DNA of 34,073 nucleotides from assembly GCA_009841055.1 (NCBI GenBank), contig VXMN01000332.1, positions 1 through 34,073 of the forward strand, in the 5' to 3' direction. A model generated the notes under the pieces. It saw only the letters and a list, made by a program, of their open reading frames with translations, had not been told where the DNA came from and did not search any database. How positions within the stretch are numbered: position 1 is the first letter of the stretch; each line of letters opens with the position of its first letter. The translations under genes were made by a program, and so were the position numbers. The DNA comes from Acidobacteriota bacterium. Its GTDB lineage: Bacteria; Acidobacteriota; Terriglobia; Versatilivoradales; Versatilivoraceae. Positions 4,420 through 30,645 of the stretch are shown here, piece after piece.

Positions 4420-4514
4420 GCCCTGGCCTCGATGGAACGCGGATCTGGCGGAAGTATACCGGAGAGAGCCCCTTGTCTCAATCTTCACGGGGCATCCGGG
4501 ACGTGCCGCGAACG

Positions 4515-4570
4515 GGGAAAAGAGGAATCCACGAAAGGACACGAAGGACGGCGAAGACACACGAAGAAGG
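4515..4570. repeat. CACGAAG-type dispersed repeat in the 4420-4606 spacer
   Basis: The spacer between the two minus-strand genes contains closely spaced ACGAAG words (ATCCACGAAAGGACACGAAG and following). The same word order, inverted, is found at 30586-30645, and a decayed copy at 26133-26170. No coding frame is supported in this spacer. Confidence 0.6.
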
Positions 4571-4606
4571 AATATTACCGGCTGGTCGAACCGCTTCGCC
4601 GAGCCT

Positions 4607-6451
4607 TTAAGGCAGTCCCTGGTGGAACAGCATGTAAATCGGCATGAGAATCGCAAAGATCCCCAAGATCAGGAAGAAGGCACAGGAAATCATGTTGGTT
4701 TCCACGGTGGCGGCGCGGAAGTGTTCCTTCATTGCCTGGATGATCTTTTTGAGCAAGGGACCGTGGCGACCCGGCCTGACCTTGATCTGGCCGCTTCCCA
4801 TCCATGACTGAATGGCCACCTGCAGCTCGGCTTCAACCGAGGTCAGCCGTATCGAGGAAAGGCTCTCTTCGTAGGGCAACTGCAGTTTTTCGAGTGCCGC
4901 CAGCAGCCCGTCCCGAAAGGATTTCCCGGTTACGGCAAATGCCAGGTAGCCCCTCATTTGAAGCCAAAAAACAACTGCGATGACGGGGAACAACAGAAGA
5001 GGCAGCCAATCCACTATCTCGAAGGGCCGCGAAGCCGGGAACGGACGTGGGAAGAATGTACCCAACGGGCCGAGAAAAATGAGCAACATACCTAACAGAA
5101 ACCATCTGGCTGAGAACAGCAAGGGGCGTTTGGTCACAAGCCCGCGCAGTCCTATGGCCAGAATAAAGACTCCCATCACGCCAAATATAACCGCTGAAAA
5201 AACCAGGTTGAATGAAGCTCTCCTGGCTCTTGCACTCCGGCCCAGAGTATGGGGGTCGCGTTGAGAGGAGCGCAGGTCCAAAGACTCCAAATCAAGCTGA
5301 CGGGTGCTTCCGAATTCCCCCAGATGGTCCACTGCCTTCTCGATCAGGGAAATGAACGGAGGGGCCAGACTGCCGGTTCGGGTCAATATCTTGCCGTTCT
5401 CGTCGGCCAGAACATAGGTTGGATAGCCTCTGATACGCAGAAGGCGCTCGAGGTCGCTCCCCTCACCCACGTGCCAGTTCGTCCATGGCATGGGTTCATC
5501 CTCGACAAACCGGGTCGCGGTCTCAAGCTCTTCGTCCCCGCTGATCCCGACGAGGGCGAACCGGTCCGCCGGTAGTCCGGAAACCAACTCCCGAAGCTTC
5601 GGCAAGGCCGCGACACACGGACCGCACCAGGTCGCCCAGAAATCGAGCAGCACGATGCGTCCCCGGTAGTCCGACAGACGTTCCTCGACGCCGTCGAGCC
5701 GGGTGCCAGCCACGTCCGGCAGCCTGCCCCGCCGTAGGGTGCGAAACTCCGCCGCTGCCAGCGGTTGAGACCTTTTGGTTTCGGAAGCGTAGACCTCGAG
5801 GGACTTCTCCTCCTTCCATGTGGTGTCATCGATCTTGTAATCTGCCGGAATTTTGAAGACCGATGGTTCCGGCTCGGCGAACCGGATGTCGTAGAGTTCT
5901 CTAACTTGCCTTCCCCGACCGAAGTTCACCTCCGTTTTGACCCTCAGGTTAGCCTCTCTCGCCACCCAAACTTTGCCGATAGATTCGTCTGGACTGCCGG
6001 GGGACAAGACAGGCATTGCCAGGCAATCGAGCCCTGCAATGACTCCTTCGTCAATTGCCAGATCGGGTCTTAACACAATTGGGCGGAATGGTTCTGTCCT
6101 GACTTGTTTGAGGATTGCTCCTTTGAGACGGTGGTTCAACACGTAGGTTTTTCGAGTCGAAGAATCCATGAGAGTCGAACTGCGTCTTCCCTGATTCTTC
6201 CCTTTAACTCGCGCCATGGTATCCAGCACAGAACCGGAGGAAGAACGGAAGTAGGTGCCCTCTTCCCGCTTGACTTCCATTTCGGTTCCATCGGACTGAA
6301 CAAGATAGTGAACACTTCTCTGCTTGGCGATAACGGGCACGAATTGCGCCCGCAGCTCGGTCGTCGAACTAAACACGAAGATCAGACAAGTCGGCAACAC
6401 ACCAAGTCTTATTCCGGCAGCCTCCCTTTTTCGGGTCTCGTTCTGGTCCAC
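4607..6451 (-). CDS. exported thioredoxin-domain (TlpA-like) membrane protein
   Basis: The protein is 614 residues from a GTG at 6451, supported by GGAGG eight bases upstream. An N-terminal signal segment (residues 15-35) is followed by a domain of about 200 residues of unknown family, possibly LolA/outer-membrane-lipoprotein-like. A TlpA/AhpC-type thioredoxin domain covers about residues 245-385, with catalytic WCGPC at 275-279. The C-terminal third has three hydrophobic segments between about 410 and 500 and a last one near the end. The redox centre is expected on the outer face of the membrane. The thioredoxin module is nearly the same as those in the genes at 8815-10095 and 10336-10764. 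It follows the small membrane gene by 30 bp. Its redox partner is unknown. Confidence 0.85.
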   Translation of the reverse strand: MDQNETRKREAAGIRLGVLPTCLIFVFSSTTELRAQFVPVIAKQRSVHYLVQSDGTEMEVKREEGTYFRSSSGSVLDTMARVKGKNQGRRSSTLMDSSTRKTYVLNHRLKGAILKQVRTEPFRPIVLRPDLAIDEGVIAGLDCLAMPVLSPGSPDESIGKVWVAREANLRVKTEVNFGRGRQVRELYDIRFAEPEPSVFKIPADYKIDDTTWKEEKSLEVYASETKRSQPLAAAEFRTLRRGRLPDVAGTRLDGVEERLSDYRGRIVLLDFWATWCGPCVAALPKLRELVSGLPADRFALVGISGDEELETATRFVEDEPMPWTNWHVGEGSDLERLLRIRGYPTYVLADENGKILTRTGSLAPPFISLIEKAVDHLGEFGSTRQLDLESLDLRSSQRDPHTLGRSARARRASFNLVFSAVIFGVMGVFILAIGLRGLVTKRPLLFSARWFLLGMLLIFLGPLGTFFPRPFPASRPFEIVDWLPLLLFPVIAVVFWLQMRGYLAFAVTGKSFRDGLLAALEKLQLPYEESLSSIRLTSVEAELQVAIQSWMGSGQIKVRPGRHGPLLKKIIQAMKEHFRAATVETNMISCAFFLILGIFAILMPIYMLFHQGLP

Positions 6452-6481
6452 AGTTCTGGCCTCCGTGCCGGCTGTTTGGAA

Positions 6482-6670
6482 TCAGTCCCGAAGGTATCGT
6501 CGGATACGAGCTATTGCAGGGAGACCCGTGACCGCCGCAAGTCCTACGGCGATTACGGCCACTATGATTTTTTCCATGCCATAGTAGCGGTGGTCCAGCG
6601 CGTCATAGGCCAACACGGCACTCACCACTGCGACGGCCACAAGCCCTCCTGTCTTTGCCAATTCCAGCAT
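6482..6670 (-). CDS. small two-helix membrane protein
   Basis: This 62-residue ORF starts at an ATG and encodes two hydrophobic segments (about residues 5-22 and 34-52) separated by a short polar loop with DHRYYG, ending in a basic tail (RIRRYLRD). No family is recognised. It sits in a tight series of minus-strand genes, about 30 bp after the regulatory-domain gene and 30 bp before the thioredoxin membrane protein, which supports it being real and cotranscribed. Its ribosome binding site is weak (GAGAG-like). Confidence 0.6.
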   Translation of the reverse strand: MLELAKTGGLVAVAVVSAVLAYDALDHRYYGMEKIIVAVIAVGLAAVTGLPAIARIRRYLRD

Positions 6671-6700
6671 CGTTAACTCTCAGTAGCTCTGCGCTTGACG

Positions 6701-8407
6701 TCAATTCGTCCCGGGCGCCGGCAACGCCACCAGGGATTCCTCTATTGTCTGGCCGGACGCTAGATCGATCCGCTCCGAATCCCGTTCCAGGCTGGCCAGG
6801 TAGTCGAGGTCACTTTCAAGCCCGGACTCGTGATCGGTTACAGCGCACAGCAGATACTCTCCAGGCACCAGGCCCTTCAGAGAAAACCGCCCGCTCTGGT
6901 CGGTTTGAGTCGTCCTGGTGAATCGTGAGTTGGGTCCCCTCAAGTCGGAGTCGGCGGCAAAGACCAGAACGGTCGCTCCTTTCGCTACTTCCCGAACCTC
7001 CTCCTTTTCAACGACACCGCCGACTTGCCCTCCCTCTGACGACACATGAATCTCTACCCCATCCAGCCGGTCGGCGCTTCTCACCTCTATCGGCCGGTCG
7101 ACGAGTTCTTCTGTCTGGAGGCGGATGGACTCGACATAGTGATTCCCCGGCGGGAGCCTGACAACCAGGCGATAGGAGGCCTCAGGCAGGTTCTTGATCT
7201 TGAAGGTGAAGTTCTCTTCAACCCGGCCGCTTTCCCCGCCGAAAAAAGTCCTGCTGGACTCGCCAATCGGATCCATTTCCAACCAGATCCGGCGCCAATC
7301 CAAGTCGGAGTCCTGGCGATCCGTCACAATCCTACCGGAAACCTCCGCGCCCGCACCCAGGACCAGCGTTAGGCCTTCGATATCCTGGTCGGCTACTTCT
7401 ACAACGGTGCTGGCCATCCGAGGCTTGTCGTCTTCCCCCGCACGGGCATGCAAACGATGCCTTCCCGGAAGAAGGCCCGCCACCTTGAATTCTCCTTGCA
7501 GATCCGTGTTCGCGCTCGATTCCATCCCGGCAATAAAGGCTTCGCCGGATTCCCTTCTGGAAATGATCCACACCGCGTGGGCCGGCTTGCCCTCTGCCGT
7601 AAGCACCCGGCCGCTGGCACTGTAGCTGCGAGTCTCGAACAGGGTGAAGTAGAAACCACCCACCTCTTCCCCGGCCGCTACCTGCACTTTGGCCGCATCC
7701 AGCGGACTCAAAACTCCGGGGTAGTAGACGGGAGGGAATGAGCGTTCTTCTCCTCCCATACGCCCATAAAAAAAAGGAGGGGCCGCGCTCAAGTAGTAGC
7801 TTCCCGGGGGAATGTCGAAGAGACGGAAACGTCCCCGGTCATCGGTCTCGGCACGGCCCACCGGAAACAGTTTGCGCTCGCCTCCGGAACTCTCATAGCT
7901 GCTCAACCTCACCGAGACTCGCGAGCGGGGTTCGTTGTGCTGGTCCACCACGGTTCCTTCCACCACGCCGCCTCGAATCATTTTGAAACCAATGCTATTG
8001 AGGGTCTCGCCCGACGCAAGCGAGAGAGGCGTTCCTCTTTGCCGTCTTCCCGACCCCGAGGATGTCTTCTGGCCGTAAATCTGAGGAAGGTAGCCGTTGC
8101 GGGTCGCCCGCAGAAGGTACCTCCCTGACTCCAGATCCCTGAACTGGTATTCGCCTCGGTTATCGGTGCGAACGGTCCGGGGGCGCTCATTGCCTCGACC
8201 ATCTGATGAAAAGAGCGTCACGGTTACCCTGGCCAGGGGACTTTCTCCCTCGGCGGTGAAGACCCGCCCCCGGATCACTCCGGAATACCGGTCCGCGGTA
8301 TCCTGATCGGACTTGGCGGGAATTTGAATGGAAGATGGATGGCCGAATGCAGCAAAGCCAACCAGAGAACCAACGACGATACTCAGCAAGGAGCATCTTG
8401 TTTGCAT
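6701..8407 (-). CDS. secreted carboxypeptidase-regulatory-like domain protein
   Basis: The start is placed at the ATG at 8407 because GGAGG lies five bases upstream and a signal peptide follows directly (MQTRCSLLSIVVGSLVGFAA). The 568-residue product consists of successive CarboxypepD_reg/Cna-B-like beta-sandwich repeats, recognised by GxVxxxxGxPLxxVxVxL openings and DxxGxYxFxxLxxGxYxLxAxxxGY closings, for example VRTDNRGEYQFRDLESGRYL and RFSLKGLVPGEYLL. Such proteins are abundant in Acidobacteriota and are presumed to act extracellularly or in the periplasm as structural or binding modules. No catalytic domain is visible. Just upstream is the sigma-factor remnant. The spacer to it (8408-8532) is relatively AT-rich and could hold a promoter (TTGTAA/TTTAAT, weak). 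Confidence 0.85.
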   Translation of the reverse strand: MQTRCSLLSIVVGSLVGFAAFGHPSSIQIPAKSDQDTADRYSGVIRGRVFTAEGESPLARVTVTLFSSDGRGNERPRTVRTDNRGEYQFRDLESGRYLLRATRNGYLPQIYGQKTSSGSGRRQRGTPLSLASGETLNSIGFKMIRGGVVEGTVVDQHNEPRSRVSVRLSSYESSGGERKLFPVGRAETDDRGRFRLFDIPPGSYYLSAAPPFFYGRMGGEERSFPPVYYPGVLSPLDAAKVQVAAGEEVGGFYFTLFETRSYSASGRVLTAEGKPAHAVWIISRRESGEAFIAGMESSANTDLQGEFKVAGLLPGRHRLHARAGEDDKPRMASTVVEVADQDIEGLTLVLGAGAEVSGRIVTDRQDSDLDWRRIWLEMDPIGESSRTFFGGESGRVEENFTFKIKNLPEASYRLVVRLPPGNHYVESIRLQTEELVDRPIEVRSADRLDGVEIHVSSEGGQVGGVVEKEEVREVAKGATVLVFAADSDLRGPNSRFTRTTQTDQSGRFSLKGLVPGEYLLCAVTDHESGLESDLDYLASLERDSERIDLASGQTIEESLVALPAPGTN

Positions 8408-8532
8408 TCGACCCTCCTTGACCCTGGAGGGGAATCTCAGCATCCAGGGTATGGAGAAGCATCAAATTGTTGCCTATACTCTATTAAACCGTCGAAACAG
8501 CGATTGATTACAAGTTTTTTGTGGAGGGGCTC

Positions 8533-8799
8533 TCAGGATCGTCTGGAGCCCCTGTGCGATAACGATTGAGTGCGTGCATCGATGCGGCGCTTGAGCAGGG
8601 AGATGGCCCGGTTCATGCGGACGGCGACATTGCCGCGAGAGACGTGAAGGAGTCGAGAGATCGTCTTGTTGGACAATCCCTGGTACAGCCGCAGCTTGAT
8701 GACCTGCCGGCAGGTTCCCGGCAGCAGATCGATCATCTCCCTGAGCAAAAAAAGCCGTTCTCTTTCCCGGGCAAGAGCTTCGGGGTCCCGGGTCAGGGT
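8533..8799 (-). pseudogene. remnant of an ECF-type sigma factor, region 4 only
   Basis: The frame from 8799 to 8533 encodes a clear sigma70 region 4 helix-turn-helix: LLREMIDLLPGTCRQVIKLR, then QGLSNKTISRLLHVSRGNVA, then MNRAISLLKRRI. It has no region 2, no credible start codon (only TTG at 8748 or an internal ATG), and an in-frame TGA at 8800-8802, 13 bp from the stop of the thioredoxin gene upstream. It therefore looks like an ECF sigma gene that lost its 5' half when the thioredoxin gene arrived next to it. A hairpin (GGGGCTC...GAGCCCC, 8526-8552) overlaps its stop codon but has no U-tract. Expression as a stand-alone region 4 protein of about 70 residues is possible but less likely. Confidence 0.75.
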
Positions 8800-8814
8800 T
8801 CACTCGTCACGGTC

Positions 8815-10095
8815 CTAACCTGGCCTCATCGAGCGATGGTCTTCCAATGTAATCCCGACATCGAGCCCCTTGGTGTTTCCGAATTCCTCTAGGTGGTGCA
8901 CGGCCTTCTCGATCAGGGAGGCAAACGGAGGGATCAGGGAGGGCACGTGGGTTAGAATCTTGCCGCCCTCGCCGACCAGCACGTAGCTCGGATAGCCCTC
9001 GATACGCAGGAGACGCTCGAAGTCACTCCCTTCGCCTGCGTGCCAGTTCGTCCAGGGCATCGGTTCATCCTGGACAAACCGGGTCACGGTCCCAATCTCC
9101 TCGTCCCCGCTGATCGAGATGACGGCGAAGCGGTCGGCCGGCAGCCTGGCAACCAGTCCCCGGAGCTTCGGCAGATCCGCGACGCACGGCCCGCACCAGG
9201 TTGCCCAGAAATCGAGCAGCACGATGCGGCCGCGATAGTCCGACAGGCGTTCCTCGACGCCGTCGAGCCGTTTGCCCGTCACGTCCGGCAGCACGCCGCC
9301 CACGGTCCCTTGGCGCAGGCTGCGAAGCAGCTCCACTTCTGCCTCGGCCAGCGTTTGATGAGTTGCTGTGCCGTCACGGTCCAATCCCAGGAACCGCTCC
9401 TCCTCCACGCCGACACTCAATCCGGTGGCCACCTCGATGGCCCGCCGACGCAGGACCTCGCGCTCCTCTGTCGGCAGCGCGAACTGGTGATTGGCGGCAC
9501 GCATCATTCCGGCTGCCACGTAATACCTGCCGTTGGCACACAATACGGGGTCTTCGGCCTCGGACGACATTTCCTCGAAGAACTTCGCAACTTGCGCTCC
9601 GTATGGCGTCTGATAGGAGTAGATCTCGTTCAGTACCCGAGGCCACTCCTGGTAGTTGGGTGCGTGGGCGAGGAGAGCCTTTGCGCCGATGTAAAAGTAC
9701 CGGCCCGATTCTTGGTGGGCATTCATCGGCCTTACGAGGAACTCGGCCGCTTCGATCGTCTTTTCATGGGCGCCGCCCAAGTCCAGGATGGCAGTCGCTG
9801 CAGCAAGAGCGGGTTCGAAGTCAGGGGGCTTTGGAAGACCATCTCTCATTTCACGAGGCGACCTGCCCTGTTGAGCGCCCATCCTGAAATGCTCCCGACT
9901 GTTCTTCCGCCAGGCGCGCTCCCGGTCGAGGAACTCTTGCACCACGGCCCAGTCCGCCCCGATCTCAGGTGGCTCAGCATCCGGGGCGACCGCGCGCTGG
10001 CACGACCCCATCGGAGTCACTACCGCCGCCGCAACAAGGATCCAACCGAGCGAACGCCATCGAAACGCGGGTGGGGCGCTGATCTCGTTTTCCAT
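8815..10095 (-). CDS. putative lipoprotein with C-terminal thioredoxin domain
   Basis: The protein is 426 residues from an ATG at 10095, with AAGG upstream. The N-terminus is a hydrophobic signal ending in MGSC (C32), a weak lipobox. Residues about 45-260 form a helical, TPR-like region of unknown family. The thioredoxin domain (about 268-410) carries WCGPC at 300-304, the WTNWHAGEGSDFERLLRI segment, and YPSYVL containing the cis-proline region. The domain is highly similar at the nucleotide level to the modules at 5310-5727 and 10364-10773. A disulfide reductase or TlpA-like role outside the cytoplasm is likely. The 240-bp gap on its upstream side (10096-10335) shows no supported gene. Confidence 0.82.
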   Translation of the reverse strand: MENEISAPPAFRWRSLGWILVAAAVVTPMGSCQRAVAPDAEPPEIGADWAVVQEFLDRERAWRKNSREHFRMGAQQGRSPREMRDGLPKPPDFEPALAAATAILDLGGAHEKTIEAAEFLVRPMNAHQESGRYFYIGAKALLAHAPNYQEWPRVLNEIYSYQTPYGAQVAKFFEEMSSEAEDPVLCANGRYYVAAGMMRAANHQFALPTEEREVLRRRAIEVATGLSVGVEEERFLGLDRDGTATHQTLAEAEVELLRSLRQGTVGGVLPDVTGKRLDGVEERLSDYRGRIVLLDFWATWCGPCVADLPKLRGLVARLPADRFAVISISGDEEIGTVTRFVQDEPMPWTNWHAGEGSDFERLLRIEGYPSYVLVGEGGKILTHVPSLIPPFASLIEKAVHHLEEFGNTKGLDVGITLEDHRSMRPG

Positions 10096-10335
10096 CGCGT
10101 GGCCTTTCTGGTGAATGCGCTTTTGCCGCTGTCTGGACCTAAAGCGAATACTCCATGCCCCACCGTGCCCAAGGTGTAATCTCCTTCGCTGCCGGCTGCC
10201 GGCACTGATTGAGAGGGTGCTTCAATGTGGCACTTGAAGGGTCCATTGCCAACCTCGGCAGAGTTGATTGCTTCAGGGCGAAGGGCATGTGAACAGCTCG
10301 GCGGCGTCAGTCCGGATTGGTGGAGCGAAGGTCTT

Positions 10336-10764
10336 TCAATTCAGACTCGACATGAAGCCCCGGGTGCTTCCGGATTTACGCAGCCGATCCACCACCTTCT
10401 CAGTCAGGGAAATGAACGGGGAGTCCAGAGCGCCGGTCCGGGTCAAAATTGTGCCGTTCTCGTCAGCCAGCACGTAGGTAGGATAGGTTCTGGTACCCAG
10501 TAAACGCCCGAGGTCACTCTCCTTGCCCGCGTGCCAGTTCGTCCAAGGCATGGGTTCATCCTGAATAAATCCGGTCACCGTCCCAAGCTCCTCGTCCGCG
10601 CTGATCGCGACGAGAGCGAACCGGTCCGCCGGCAGCTCGGCAACCAGTTCCCGAAGCTTCGGCAGATGTGCGATGCACGGCCCGCACCAGGTTGCCCAGA
10701 AATTGAGCAGCACGATGCGGCCCCGATAGTCCGACAGTGCTTCCTCGATTCCGTCGAGACGCAT
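10336..10764 (-). pseudogene. 5'-truncated copy of the thioredoxin module
   Basis: This 142-residue frame starts (ATG 10764) in the middle of the conserved module, at RLDGIEEALSDYRGR, and includes WCGPC at 26-30. It lacks any signal peptide or N-terminal domain. Similarity to the other two copies continues upstream of the ATG (DLTG, matching DVTG and DVAG) into an in-frame TGA at 10777-10779, so the natural N-terminus has been lost. The redox motif and fold core are intact, so a cytoplasmic 142-residue thioredoxin-like product is possible. It lies 96 bp downstream of the M56-TonB gene on the same strand. Confidence 0.7.
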
Positions 10765-10860
10765 GCCTGTCAGGTCTCAACGTTGTTTCCTGGGCACGCC
10801 GGGAAAACGATGGGAACTGCAATCTCTACAACGTGATTGACCGGGACAATTGGCCCGTAG

Positions 10861-12987
10861 TCAACCTGTCCTTGGAGGCGTATCAAAAACGAACTTGATG
10901 GTGATGGTGGTGACCACCTCGACCGGTTTTCCCTGATGGATGGTGGGTGCGTATTTCCACTCTTTCACCGCGTCTATGACTGAAGCAACGGCATGCCGGT
11001 AAAGTGACGGTTCTCCGTCGACGGCTCTCAGGGCTTGGACCGAACCGTCCTTTCCAATGGTGGCTTCCAGCACCAACGCCCCTTCGATTCCGGTGGAAAA
11101 CGCCCCCGATGGACAGGGCGGGGCCAACTGGTAAACGATCTTCTTCCGCTGCTCCTCCTCATTCAACCGAATCCGCTCCGACGATGGTTGTGTGTCGAAA
11201 TCGTTGGGTGATCCAAAATTCAGGGCTTGCGATGGAAATCGATTGGGAGGCGCCGGGGTCGGGAACCTTGCCGGCACCGTTCCCCATCTGTCGCCGTCGG
11301 CGAATTGAACACCCACTACGCCAACCGCAAAATCCTCGGGAATCTCTTCTAACGGAAAGTAGATCACGTACGGATGGAACACACGATTGGCCGGGTCCGG
11401 GAATAGCCCATTTCGAGGAGGGAGGGGTCTCTGAAAAGAGTCAAGGAATCTTTGAGCGCTTGTTCCGGGCATGCGGTCGGTGGAAAAGGAGCCATGGGGT
11501 TCCAGGTCAAGCTGATACATTTCCGCGCTCACCGTCCGCCGGAGCCGGGCATGGCGGAATTTCAGCCGCACCGCAGTGATCTTCCTGGCCGTCCGATTGG
11601 CAAAACTGACACGCGGCAGGAGCAGGTAGACACCCCCTTCCTCGACCTTCATCGCCCTCAAAAGGGCATCGGTGATGAGCAGGGGACTGCCTCTTGGATT
11701 CCCAAACGATATCGGTATTTCCGGACTCCGATCGATTTGCTGCAAGGTGATGGTGGGAGGAGGATATCCCATCCGCTTGAAACGCATGGACTCCTCGACT
11801 ATCGGTCCGCATTCGCTGCCGGACATGCGTACCACCGCGCTCACGTCTTCCGGAATCTCTTCCTGACTGGTTTGGATTCGTAGCGAGTACCTGTTGGTCG
11901 AGCTGCTCCAGGCCGCGTAGGCATCACGGTTCACAAGACCCGCACCCAGGGAAAAGACCGTCAGCGCCGCCACCAATCCGATGATCAAGGCGCGTTCCGG
12001 GGTGCCGAGCCTTCTCGGCGGGTCGGCGGACAGGAGATGTTTCATGCGTCTCTTGAGGCTTGCGCCGCCAATGGAAGAGGTTCCAACCAGCCGCTGCTCC
12101 ACGCAGGCCCTGGCGACCTTCAGAATTCCCGAAACGTAGGTCTCAGGAGACTTTTTAAGCCTCACAACTTCTTCATCGCAAGCCCGCTCCCGCTCTTCGA
12201 ACAACTTCCTGTCGATGAGCCATGCCAGAGGATAGAACCACAGCAAAGCCATGACCGCCTTCTGGAGGATGACGGCGAGGTTGTCCCTGCGCTCCACGTG
12301 AAGCAGCTCGTGCAGCATGACCGCTTCCAGCTCCTCGTCGTTCAAGCGGCTTGCGGCCTCTTCGGGCAACAACACCATGGGCCTCCATATGCCCCAAAGT
12401 CCTGCTTCGGTGACTCTGGCCGAAATGAGAATGTCAACGTCCTGTTTCAACAGAAGCCAGGAGCGGACGCGCTTCAGGATCTCCGTTTCTCTGGAAGAGA
12501 CCAGCCCATGGCTGATCTTGACGGCCCAGGCCAGATGAAAAGAGCCTCTTGCCCAGCGAACAACGAAGAATACGAACCCCACCAGCCAGGTCAGCGTGAG
12601 CGCGCAATACAGTTCGTTGTGGGATTCGGCGGACACGGGCTGACCCACAACGGGCCGGCTCAGGAGCAAGGGACTCAGGACTTCATAGAGGGGTCTTCCC
12701 GGATCGGAAGCAGGAGCCCCATTGGTTGCCTGTTCCAGGGGTGGAGGGAGAAGGGACGGCGTCGCGGACGGAATATCCGATATCAGCCATGCCAACAGGA
12801 CTGAAGGAACCAGTAGCTTGACCGCGGCCAGAAGCCAGAACCAGTATCGAGTACTAGCCGGCGCCCGCTTGAGCAACCGGACACCCAATGCCACAAATCC
12901 GACAAAGAGAGTTGCCTCCCAGAGGTGGACCGCAACGTTGGGCCACAGCCAGGAAGACCACTCCGCCAACCATGAGTGCATGTTCAT
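10861..12987 (-). CDS. BlaR1-like M56 metalloprotease with C-terminal TonB domain
   Basis: The protein has 708 residues. The N-terminal half has membrane helices (about 25-40, 48-70, 127-145, and one after the protease motif) typical of the M56 sensor-protease family. The zinc motif HELLH is at 226-230, followed by ERRDN, and a downstream RACDEEVV segment supplies the usual third ligand. After a transmembrane segment near residue 340 comes a periplasmic region, and the last 70 residues form a TonB C-terminal domain (LEATIGKDGSVQALR, KEWKYAPTIHQGKPVEV). In characterised BlaR1/MecR1 systems the protease inactivates the partner repressor on sensing a signal. Here the beta-lactam sensor domain is replaced by other sequence ending in TonB, so the signal is unknown. 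It starts 44 bp after the BlaI gene. Confidence 0.88.
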   Translation of the reverse strand: MNMHSWLAEWSSWLWPNVAVHLWEATLFVGFVALGVRLLKRAPASTRYWFWLLAAVKLLVPSVLLAWLISDIPSATPSLLPPPLEQATNGAPASDPGRPLYEVLSPLLLSRPVVGQPVSAESHNELYCALTLTWLVGFVFFVVRWARGSFHLAWAVKISHGLVSSRETEILKRVRSWLLLKQDVDILISARVTEAGLWGIWRPMVLLPEEAASRLNDEELEAVMLHELLHVERRDNLAVILQKAVMALLWFYPLAWLIDRKLFEERERACDEEVVRLKKSPETYVSGILKVARACVEQRLVGTSSIGGASLKRRMKHLLSADPPRRLGTPERALIIGLVAALTVFSLGAGLVNRDAYAAWSSSTNRYSLRIQTSQEEIPEDVSAVVRMSGSECGPIVEESMRFKRMGYPPPTITLQQIDRSPEIPISFGNPRGSPLLITDALLRAMKVEEGGVYLLLPRVSFANRTARKITAVRLKFRHARLRRTVSAEMYQLDLEPHGSFSTDRMPGTSAQRFLDSFQRPLPPRNGLFPDPANRVFHPYVIYFPLEEIPEDFAVGVVGVQFADGDRWGTVPARFPTPAPPNRFPSQALNFGSPNDFDTQPSSERIRLNEEEQRKKIVYQLAPPCPSGAFSTGIEGALVLEATIGKDGSVQALRAVDGEPSLYRHAVASVIDAVKEWKYAPTIHQGKPVEVVTTITIKFVFDTPPRTG

Positions 12988-13031
12988 GAGAGACAGCGCT
13001 CCTCACCTGCTCGCAGGCTCCTGTCCGGAAC

Positions 13032-13451
13032 TCACTCGGGTTTGTCATCCAATGCAGCCGTCCCCGATTGGCGGGATTCTCGTTCCTTGAGCATCCTTTC
13101 CAGGTCCCGCAGTTCTTCCAGTGTCAGTTTGCCTGAGTCCACCAGGTGGGACATCACAGGCCGGTGTGAACCGCCGAACAACTCCAGAAAATCGTTCACC
13201 AGGCGGCGGTAGGCCTGCTTTTGGGTAATTACCGGGACAAAAACATAAGCATTCCCGATCTTTCGCTGTTTCCGCAAGGCTCCCTTTGTTTCCAGGCGAA
13301 AGACCAGGGTCTGGACCGTCGTATAGGCGAGGGGCTTCCTCACAGGGATCTGCTCCAGAATTTCCCTGATGGACGCCCTGCCGAGTTTCCAGAGAGCTTC
13401 CATCGCCTTGAGCTCAAGCGGCGACAGTTTGATATGGTTCCTCTGTGTCAA
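13032..13451 (-). CDS. BlaI/MecI-family transcriptional repressor
   Basis: The start is placed at the TTG at 13451 because AAAGGAGGT lies about six bases upstream. Longer frames would have to translate through this ribosome binding site. The 139-residue product begins MTQRNHIKLSPLELKAMEAL and has the winged helix typical of the family (SIREILEQIP, YTTVQTLVFRLETKGALRK), followed by a C-terminal dimerisation part (LTLEELRDLERMLKERE). BlaI proteins bind short dyads related to TACTACAnnTGTAGTA as dimers and are cleaved when the M56 partner is activated. The gene is directly upstream of its M56 partner. The likely target includes the promoter dyad at 13817-13840. Confidence 0.9.
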   Translation of the reverse strand: MTQRNHIKLSPLELKAMEALWKLGRASIREILEQIPVRKPLAYTTVQTLVFRLETKGALRKQRKIGNAYVFVPVITQKQAYRRLVNDFLELFGGSHRPVMSHLVDSGKLTLEELRDLERMLKERESRQSGTAALDDKPE

Positions 13452-13558
13452 GAGAACACCTCCTTTACCTTGCATTGCCGAGGACAGGACCCGTATTGGA
13501 AATTGTGTAGTCTTGCGGAATCGCAAAGACCGACGCACTCGGTTCCCCCTGCCGGAGC

Positions 13559-13705
13559 TCAAAGCATTCCCTGATCCGGCGGGTTCCACTCCTTGTATTG
13601 AGCTGTCAAGGGAAGCCACTGTCCTTGCAGCAGCAGCGGAAGGGTCGACCCGAGTACAGGTGTGACGCAAACCGACAGAACCCTGCTAGTTGTCTTTCTT
13701 TTCAT
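13559..13705 (-). CDS. 48-residue hypothetical peptide leading the BlaI operon
   Basis: The ORF starts at an ATG at 13705 preceded by GGAGGTGAAACG, one of the best ribosome binding sites in the window. The peptide has a basic N-terminus (MKRKTTSR), a hydrophobic core (about residues 9-27) and a polar C-terminus (QYKEWNPPDQGML). This resembles a signal peptide or a single-span membrane peptide. It lies between the candidate promoter at 13817-13849 and blaI, so it would be the first translated gene of the operon. No family is recognised. It may instead be a truncated secreted protein, since no open frame continues after its stop. Confidence 0.55.
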   Translation of the reverse strand: MKRKTTSRVLSVCVTPVLGSTLPLLLQGQWLPLTAQYKEWNPPDQGML

Positions 13706-13816
13706 CGTTTCACCTCCAAAGGCATTCGGGTCCCTGGCAGAGCGTGCTCCAAGGTCCCAGCATCGGCTGAAGGAAAGCCTGTTTTTCAGAGCAGGAATCT
13801 TTTTATATGATTTACG

Positions 13817-13849
13817 AGTACTAATACCCTCATTTGTAGTTATCGTCAA
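13817..13849 (-). promoter_or_regulatory. sigma70-like promoter with overlapping dyad, candidate BlaI operator
   Basis: Read on the minus strand there is TTGACG (13849-13844), a 17-bp spacer and TATTAG (13826-13821). A 24-bp imperfect dyad (13817-13840) begins ACTACAAAT and ends ATTAGTACT, with 7 of 12 positions symmetric. It covers the spacer and the -10 element, and ACTACA matches a BlaI half-site. This fits autorepression of the peptide-blaI-M56 operon. The rest of the 13706-14017 gap shows no gene. Confidence 0.5.
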
Positions 13850-14017
13850 GCACAAACCTCTCCGGATGTCGATCTCCCAGGGAAAATCGCCGGTACCGGT
13901 CAGGTTGGAATGGTTCCGCTGGGTGTGATCAGGATCCTCTATCCCGGGAATCGACGGCAGAGAGGGGCCTTGGCGGCGCCACGCTCCAGGACAGCCCGGC
14001 CCCGTGCCAGCGGGCGC

Positions 14018-15097
14018 CTACCGGGCGCCGGCTATCTGCAATGGATGGTGGAGGCGGTAGTGCCAGGCCAGCACGTCCCGGCCGAAGTCGCCGTCGAAGT
14101 CTCTCCAGACGGAGTGGCTGTGGTTGTTGTTGTTCTGGGTATTGTCGTATTCGATCAGGAATGACGGGGCCTGTACCCGGTAGTAGTCGCCGGCTCCCGG
14201 CTGCACCGAACCGGCCCAGGCAAAGAAGAGCTGGTCGCGCGGGGTCTTCCTGGCCTTTTGCATCCTCCGCTCGGCCACCTCGTCCGGAAGGATGTTGGCG
14301 TACTCGCCGATCAGGGCCATCAACCGGTCGACCTGCGGGGCAGTCATGTCGGAGGCCGCCAACCCTGACGGCTGGCCTTCCAGTTTGGCCCGCGAATCGG
14401 CCTTGGTGAGGACATCGGGATAGGCCGTCTCGGCCACCTTCGCCTTGCGGAGCTGCCTGGCGTCCAGGGATTGGACCAGGGCTCGCGCCATATCCTCCTC
14501 CTTGGCCAGGGCCCTCATGCCTTGGTAGCGGCCCGCCAGCACCCGGTGGGGGTTGGCTCCCAGGAAGGTGGGGCTGGCCGAAACCAGGCGCCCTTCCTTG
14601 AAGGTGAAATTCAGGGAAATATGGTGCCCCTCCACCCGGAAGCCCCAGGTTCCCTCCAGCGACGGCTTGCCGAAAACGCTGAAGTAGTACTTGTCGATGT
14701 CCCGGTTGCCGGTGGTGTCCTTCTCCAGCACTCGAAGGATCTCCTCCAGGGTCTGGACCGCCATCACCTTGGCGAAACCGGCCTGGCTCAGGCCGGCGGC
14801 CAGCAGAGCATCGGCCAGGCGGCGCTGTTCGGGAGCCATGCCCTTGTAGTTCACCCCTTTTCGGGCGTAGCCGTACTCCCTGGCGAAAGCGCTGTCGGGG
14901 AAGAAGTGCCACACCGTCCGGGTCTGGTGGCCGAAGTCGTAGACCACCTTGGCCCGCTGCTCCTCCGTGAGCGAGTTCACAAACCGGGTGGCGGTTTCAT
15001 ACAGGACCGTCTCGGTCCTGGTCCGGTGATTGGCCGCCACAAGGGCCAGGGCGCAAACGGCCAGGGCGCAGAGTCGGAAAGTCACGGGCTTGGTCAT
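14018..15097 (-). CDS. DUF3500 family protein
   Basis: The protein is 359 residues from an ATG at 15097 with GGAGG upstream. A signal peptide covers about residues 1-22 (ALAVCALALVAA). The family hallmarks are present: FVNSLTEEQR near the N-terminus, the central GTWGFRVEGHHISLNFT segment, and the C-terminal signature EYDNTQNNNNHSHSVWRDFD followed by GDFG. DUF3500 has no firmly assigned biochemical function; the conserved Asp, Asn and His residues suggest a metal or ligand site. It lies 72 bp after the aldolase gene on the same strand and may be the last gene of the cyclitol-type operon. GGCGCC words flanking its stop codon could form a weak hairpin. Confidence 0.88.
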   Translation of the reverse strand: MTKPVTFRLCALAVCALALVAANHRTRTETVLYETATRFVNSLTEEQRAKVVYDFGHQTRTVWHFFPDSAFAREYGYARKGVNYKGMAPEQRRLADALLAAGLSQAGFAKVMAVQTLEEILRVLEKDTTGNRDIDKYYFSVFGKPSLEGTWGFRVEGHHISLNFTFKEGRLVSASPTFLGANPHRVLAGRYQGMRALAKEEDMARALVQSLDARQLRKAKVAETAYPDVLTKADSRAKLEGQPSGLAASDMTAPQVDRLMALIGEYANILPDEVAERRMQKARKTPRDQLFFAWAGSVQPGAGDYYRVQAPSFLIEYDNTQNNNNHSHSVWRDFDGDFGRDVLAWHYRLHHPLQIAGAR

Positions 15098-30293: not shown

Positions 30294-30501
30294 CCACCCG
30301 GGAGCGCGGGCGTCCCGCCCGCACAACACTGGCAAGGCCTCACCCAACTCCTCCACGCGGCTCGACCGGCAATGGCGCCAGGACTCTGCTCCGGCCAAGC
30401 CCATGCCGTTCCCGCCTGGGTGGCCGGGTGCCGCATCCCAGGGAAACTGAGCGGCACGCAACGGGAGTGCATGCGGGCGGGACGCCCGCGCTCCCGGGTG
30501 G
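30294..30501. repeat. 30-bp perfect inverted repeat flanking 148 bp
   Basis: The arms 30294-30323 and 30472-30501 are exact reverse complements (the core starts ACCCGGGAGCGCGGGCGTCC). The arms are themselves GC-rich and contain internal short palindromes. The 148-bp interior has no supported ORF. It resembles a miniature inverted-repeat element or a large hairpin. Confidence 0.75.
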
Positions 30502-30585
30502 CGCCTCCTCCCATCACACTCGCCCCTCGAGGGAGCTCGCCAGCTTGTCGGGCCGCAGCCCTGCCGATGCGGCAGAGCCATCCCG

Positions 30586-30645
30586 CTTCGTGTCCCTTCG
30601 TCGTTCTTCGTGGCCTTCGTGGATAACTCTTTTTCTTTTGTTCCA
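30586..30645. repeat. CACGAAG-type dispersed repeat copy
   Basis: In reverse complement it reads AGTTATCCACGAAGGCCACG and continues through AAGAACGACGAAGGGACACG, with an A-rich run upstream. It shares order and spacing with 4515-4570, which lies in the opposite orientation. Confidence 0.6.

Follow-up and report, generated by a model that had tools for sequence, protein, structure and literature searches.

Three related thioredoxin genes in a variable BlaI-M56 island are probably old paralogues, one of them truncated

Introduction

When a thioredoxin module occurs three times within 6 kb, behind N-terminal parts that do not resemble each other, has the module been copied recently or are the copies old? 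This question is raised by a stretch of 34,073 nucleotides from an Acidobacteriota bacterium (hereafter called the window), which is contig C41 of a 4.3-Mb draft genome designated own. A sequence-only reading of the window had proposed that the module, and not whole genes, was recently duplicated or gene-converted onto three different N-termini. Here, the locus was compared with those of six congeners (G001-G006). The three genes are best explained as old paralogous thioredoxin genes of a variable chromosome region, one of them truncated, whose history would have comprised duplication, the fusion of domains and decay. We assign a probability of roughly 0.78 to this reading. A literature search that covered few subscription papers found no paper titles on this gene set.

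Results

Organization of the locus

The genes of the set lie on the minus strand and are described here in the order of transcription. A BlaI-type repressor gene (13032..13463; Penicillinase_R 2e-26) is followed by the gene of an M56 (BlaR1-like) peptidase with a TonB_C end (10861..12987, by Pfam) and by gene C (10336..10764), an orphan module with its ATG inside the module and without signal or N-terminal domain. Gene B (8815..10095) consists of a helical, lipoprotein-like part (BN, 9292-10095) and a module (8857-9291). Then come a fragment of sigma-70 region 4 (8533..8781; Sigma70_r4_2 2e-11), a CarboxypepD_reg repeat protein (6701..8443, profile match) and finally gene A (4607-6451). The latter joins an N-terminal domain without Pfam family (AN, 5724..6376), the module (5288..5722, from the codon alignment) and a C-terminal part (AC, 4607..5281) in which hydrophobic segments were read by eye. 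A hydrophobic N-terminus, also read by eye, is present in A and B and absent in C. An Rfam scan of positions 4500-14100 returned no family at gathering score.

The module is a TlpA/ResA-like thioredoxin with the motif WCGPC in A, B and C. The Pfam profile AhpC-TSA (7e-13 for gene A) scored 49 bits for A, 49.5 for B and 54 for C, at a cut-off of 26 bits. The two cysteines of the motif, C33 and C36, are invariant in the 11 rows of the module alignment A1, from which the partial module copy G003x was left out, as it was from the module tree tests and the rooted protein tree. The NCBIfam TlpA/ResA cut-offs were missed by A (53.3 bits against 230 and 48.8 against 170), and B and C also scored below them.

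Similarity and edges of the module

The three segments on which the sequence-only reading was based had been located correctly. They lie on the minus strand and are indeed very similar in DNA (76-82% identity). Local DNA alignment gave 82% identity over 423 columns for A-B (E 9e-118), 80% over 456 columns for A-C (E 2e-115) and 78% over 457 columns for B-C (E 4e-103); in the codon alignment of the modules the values were 80.0, 79.3 and 76.2%, respectively. When the own genome was searched with the DNA of positions 5200-5800, only a 56-bp match (contig C327) and a 38-bp match (contig C133) turned up beyond these three copies, and protein searches additionally picked up ordinary thioredoxins at about 30% identity. 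As a separate observation, a fourth module is represented on contig C13 of G003 (L046:9286-9837) by its 3' part, which is joined in frame to the C-terminal part of an integrase fragment of the tyrosine type. This integrase part is 59% identical over 73 aa to an integrase in L038, and the fused frame is without Pfam hit. A related locus in own (C327:1724-1801) is only a 26-codon relic.

What the three genes have in common is a module of domain size and not the whole gene, as had been claimed. AN and BN, the parts ahead of it, are not related to each other, and in own no homologous sequence stands before C. The 5' edge of the module does not lie exactly at LPDV, and similarity reaches about 25 codons further upstream via a degraded linker that is common to A/C-type and B-type genes (5732..5769 in A, by a shuffle test; 9313..9376 in B, by alignment and shuffle test). 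The linker of the G005 C gene scored 36 against own B and 40 against G003 B, where the maxima of 1000 single-base shuffles were 28 and 27. The linker is evident in G003 and G005 and degraded in own A, for which the match was weaker (p 0.013 against own B, 0.001 against B of G001 and of G003). The p value was above 0.05 in four of the eight pairs of G001 A or G006 A with B-type genes; one of nine controls further upstream reached p 0.014. On the 3' side, all three copies match to about CGCTC, and similarity runs beyond the stop codon of C to about 10322. The 3' end of C is shifted, and its stop is common to G003 and G005.

Truncation of gene C

The three N-termini that had been counted proved to be two. 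AN and BN do differ. The idea that C simply received a copied module, without any N-terminus, is not supported, as its counterparts at the same site in G003 and G005 carry an A-type N-terminus (AN 78 and 75% identical in amino acids to that of own A). In these two genomes the region upstream of the C module contains the AN domain, the sigma fragment and then M56. Own module C (10345-10776, by DNA alignment) together with its downstream region is 92-93% identical to G003 and G005 over 577 of 701 bp, and this homology ends at 10776, where the module starts. The junction between the stop codon of M56 and module C (10777..10860) measures 84 bp. Relative to G003 and G005, own C is truncated. Since their modules continue upstream into AN, the most fitting reading of C is that of an AN-module gene without its head, from which the N-terminal part and the sigma fragment are missing. 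One draft assembly shows the junction, and the contig of G002 stops short of it. Decay of C is likely but unproved: the gene still forms an open frame, and 7 silent and 8 replacement changes fall on its branch (p 0.06 against neutrality).

Age of the copies

Neighbouring copies that are highly similar in DNA and whose silent sites, as was verified, are not saturated (pS 0.34-0.39 among the own copies) would fit a module that was duplicated recently, or that is still undergoing gene conversion, within 6 kb. Comparison with the congeners contradicts this. Among the own modules, silent-site divergence (dS) was 0.46 for B-C, 0.53 for A-C and 0.55 for A-B. Between own and congeners it was 0.26-0.28 for the orthologous B modules and 0.10-0.11 for those of C, which are thus closer than the own copies are to one another; for two flanking genes it was 0.20-0.38. 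By these distances the B/C duplication predates the split of own, G001, G003 and G005. The own A module differs from A of G001, G004 and G006 by a dS of 0.51-0.53, no less than between paralogues, and at silent sites it is nearer to the C genes of G003 and G005 (0.42-0.45) than to the A genes. The A orthologues are nearer than the own copies at the DNA (83-85% identity) and protein level, but not at silent sites. Judged by the latter, A is at least as far from B and C as those are from each other.

Tree tests pointed in the same direction. AU tests rejected clades of the own copies A+B+C (6e-54), B+C (9e-79), A+C (3e-5) and A+B (about 1e-4), all with p at most 1.3e-4. No conversion tracts were detected in own, the longest shared runs being unremarkable (p 0.50, 0.24 and 0.37), in a test of 45 pairs from which G003x and G005 B were left out. 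A shared run of G001 A and G001 B gave p 0.0025, and the pair G001 B-G004 A the same value; neither survives correction over the 45 pairs. Neither a recent duplication nor a recent conversion can be upheld, and a recent or ongoing process of either kind is a very improbable explanation of the locus. Whole-module conversion in own is refuted, while short ancient tracts may have occurred.

In the trees, the B and C modules cluster by type across species in starred clades (97/95 and 100/100). The A modules cluster weakly by type in the DNA tree (57/31); in the rooted protein tree, into which 24 of the 25 best among the 80 named-genome loci were taken, they do not. The DNA trees group A with C (76/86 and 79/86, not starred), whereas in the rooted protein tree own A falls beside B (87/84) and the A group is divided. 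With the rooted protein data a single clade of AN-module genes is not rejected (p 0.20). The DNA and rooted protein trees disagree on the order of A, B and C. A divergent BN-module gene of G005 forms the deepest branch of the rooted tree (91/74, not starred), which hints that the BN-module gene is the older form.

N-terminal and C-terminal types

Elsewhere in the genus AN is mostly a standalone gene. Among 16 near-full-length profile matches in the seven genomes of the genus, 11 are standalone as judged by their open frames (205-297 codons) and 5 are fused to the module; the fused gene of G004 has lost most of AN. Weaker matches occur in 7 of 24 genomes outside the genus. Upstream of BlaI, own holds a relic of a standalone AN gene (13495..13593; E 5e-7, 46-codon frame), and G003 and G005 have long AN copies there. 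BN was found in 4 of 61 genomes, every time with the module, and the orthologues of gene B are 84% (G003) and 80% (G001) identical in amino acids. The AC tail is carried by the A genes of own, G001, G004 and G006, and a G002 contig also has it at its end; it was not found in G003 and G005.

Among PDB sequences no convincing relatives of AN or BN were found (best E 0.42 and 0.09, unrelated molecules). Pfam proposed four families for members of AN, each for one member, and even the best (DUF4412, E 0.024) was too weak. A single-sequence structure prediction of the N-terminus and module of A (pLDDT 30) was not used; that of B (pLDDT 50) was confident only in helices near the N-terminus.

Origin of gene A

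The N-terminus of own A is 85-86% identical in nucleotides to the C-type genes of G003 and G005, against 74-76% to the A-type genes of G001 and G006, whereas its module is 84-85% identical to the A-type and 81-82% to the C-type. Discordant sites in own A divide 26:40 in the N-terminus and 40:18 in the module (p 0.0012), and C is without exactly this N-terminus. A domain swap could have produced this pattern, own A having received its N-terminus from a C-type gene, which was left headless, and having kept an A-type module and tail. At silent sites, however, both parts of own A are closer to the C-type: the N-terminus with 0.35-0.36 against 0.62-0.63, and the module with 0.42-0.44 against 0.53-0.55. 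The discordance test on third positions gave p 0.36. Trees of N-terminus and module (with 13 AN rows, of which alignment A2 omits two) were searched for topological conflict and none was found, so that one history for both parts is not rejected. Besides, a faster protein change on the C branch accounts equally for the pattern. A swap is therefore considered unlikely. We regard as likewise doubtful the broader proposal that the module serves as a homologous exchange point in the island, onto which AN, BN and the membrane tail have repeatedly been recombined, with own A as a recombinant and headless C as a by-product. If it were true, each species would obtain its own set of tethered oxidoreductases.

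The BlaI-M56 island

The genes lie in a variable island (4552-14015). Its flanks are conserved in each of the six congeners, those of G002 lying on two contigs. The distance between the flanks is 9.5 kb in own, 7.0 kb in G003, 5.4 kb in G005, 5.2 kb in G001 and 0.5 kb in G004. G006 has 6.2 kb of other content between them, including a reprolysin/NHL protein and a weak match to sigma region 2. The island of G001 contains BlaI, a frameshifted M56 gene that has lost its end, and B. This M56 gene (L039:6332-8336) has 9 in-frame stops past the shift, lacks its 3' end and stands directly before B. Divergence between own and G003 is uneven, with 0.10 for C, 0.20 for BN, 0.20-0.22 for the flanks, 0.36 for AN and 0.42 for M56, which argues that the history of the island was not purely vertical. 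BlaI differs from that of own by 0.45 in G003 and by 0.27 in G001. Some parts of the island have probably been exchanged between species. At its left edge (4515-4569) lies a dispersed repeat of about 50 bp, with copies of 87-91% identity in several congeners and in the own genome; the stretch 30469-30621 is related to it.

Discussion

Ordinary duplication, fusion and decay are preferred as explanation, because the copies predate the split of several species and C has lost its front half. A, B and C would be paralogues of old standing whose common domain is a TlpA/ResA-like thiol-disulfide oxidoreductase, and duplication and domain fusion would have led to two gene types in the genus: the AN-module gene, with or without AC, and the lipoprotein-like BN-module gene. 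In own, a break at the start of the module beside M56 would have removed the sigma fragment and the N-terminal part of C that G003 and G005 still have. Gene A would be another gene of the AN-module type; it lies between B and the left flank and is accompanied by a sigma fragment and a CarboxypepD gene of its own. The whole set lies within a plastic BlaI-M56 island.

By analogy with the family, A, by its membrane tail, and B, which is lipoprotein-like with a cysteine read by eye, are putative exchangers of disulfides via WCGPC outside the cytoplasm. The exchange would be periplasmic, with a membrane-anchored A and a lipid-anchored B, which AN and BN would tether or target. From their neighbourhood, BlaI and M56 may regulate A and B. 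The locus offers a multi-species case in which a thioredoxin domain is borne by two N-termini that are unrelated, and in which one syntenic site is occupied by an intact or a truncated form. Moreover, it teaches that orthologues should be compared before similar neighbouring copies are called recent.

With the BlaI-BlaR1/MecR1 pairs the locus shares a BlaI-type repressor beside an M56 peptidase. Unlike in those pairs, the M56 protein has a TonB_C end and no penicillin sensor was found in it: Peptidase_M56 and TonB_C were the only Pfam families above cut-off, and the blaR1 model (80.8 bits against 400) missed its own. A thioredoxin protein of Porticoccus sp. W117 has a module that is 45% identical, with the motif PMPWVNWH. 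Among distant thioredoxin proteins from other phyla (78 loci analysed of the best 80), the same kind of module follows an in-frame N-terminus of at least 200 aa in 40 of the 78. In 62 of the loci the N-terminus is at least 60 aa long, and for these no homology to AN or BN was seen in single-sequence hhalign comparisons, which are of low sensitivity. The best 80 loci were generic thioredoxins, with no evident congener among them. The TlpA/ResA/DsbE-type oxidoreductases (AhpC-TSA, Redoxin; solved structures 3gl3, 2lja and 1jfu) are alike in their thioredoxin-fold profile and WCGPC motif, whereas the genes described here fall below the curated cut-offs and carry extra N- and C-terminal parts.
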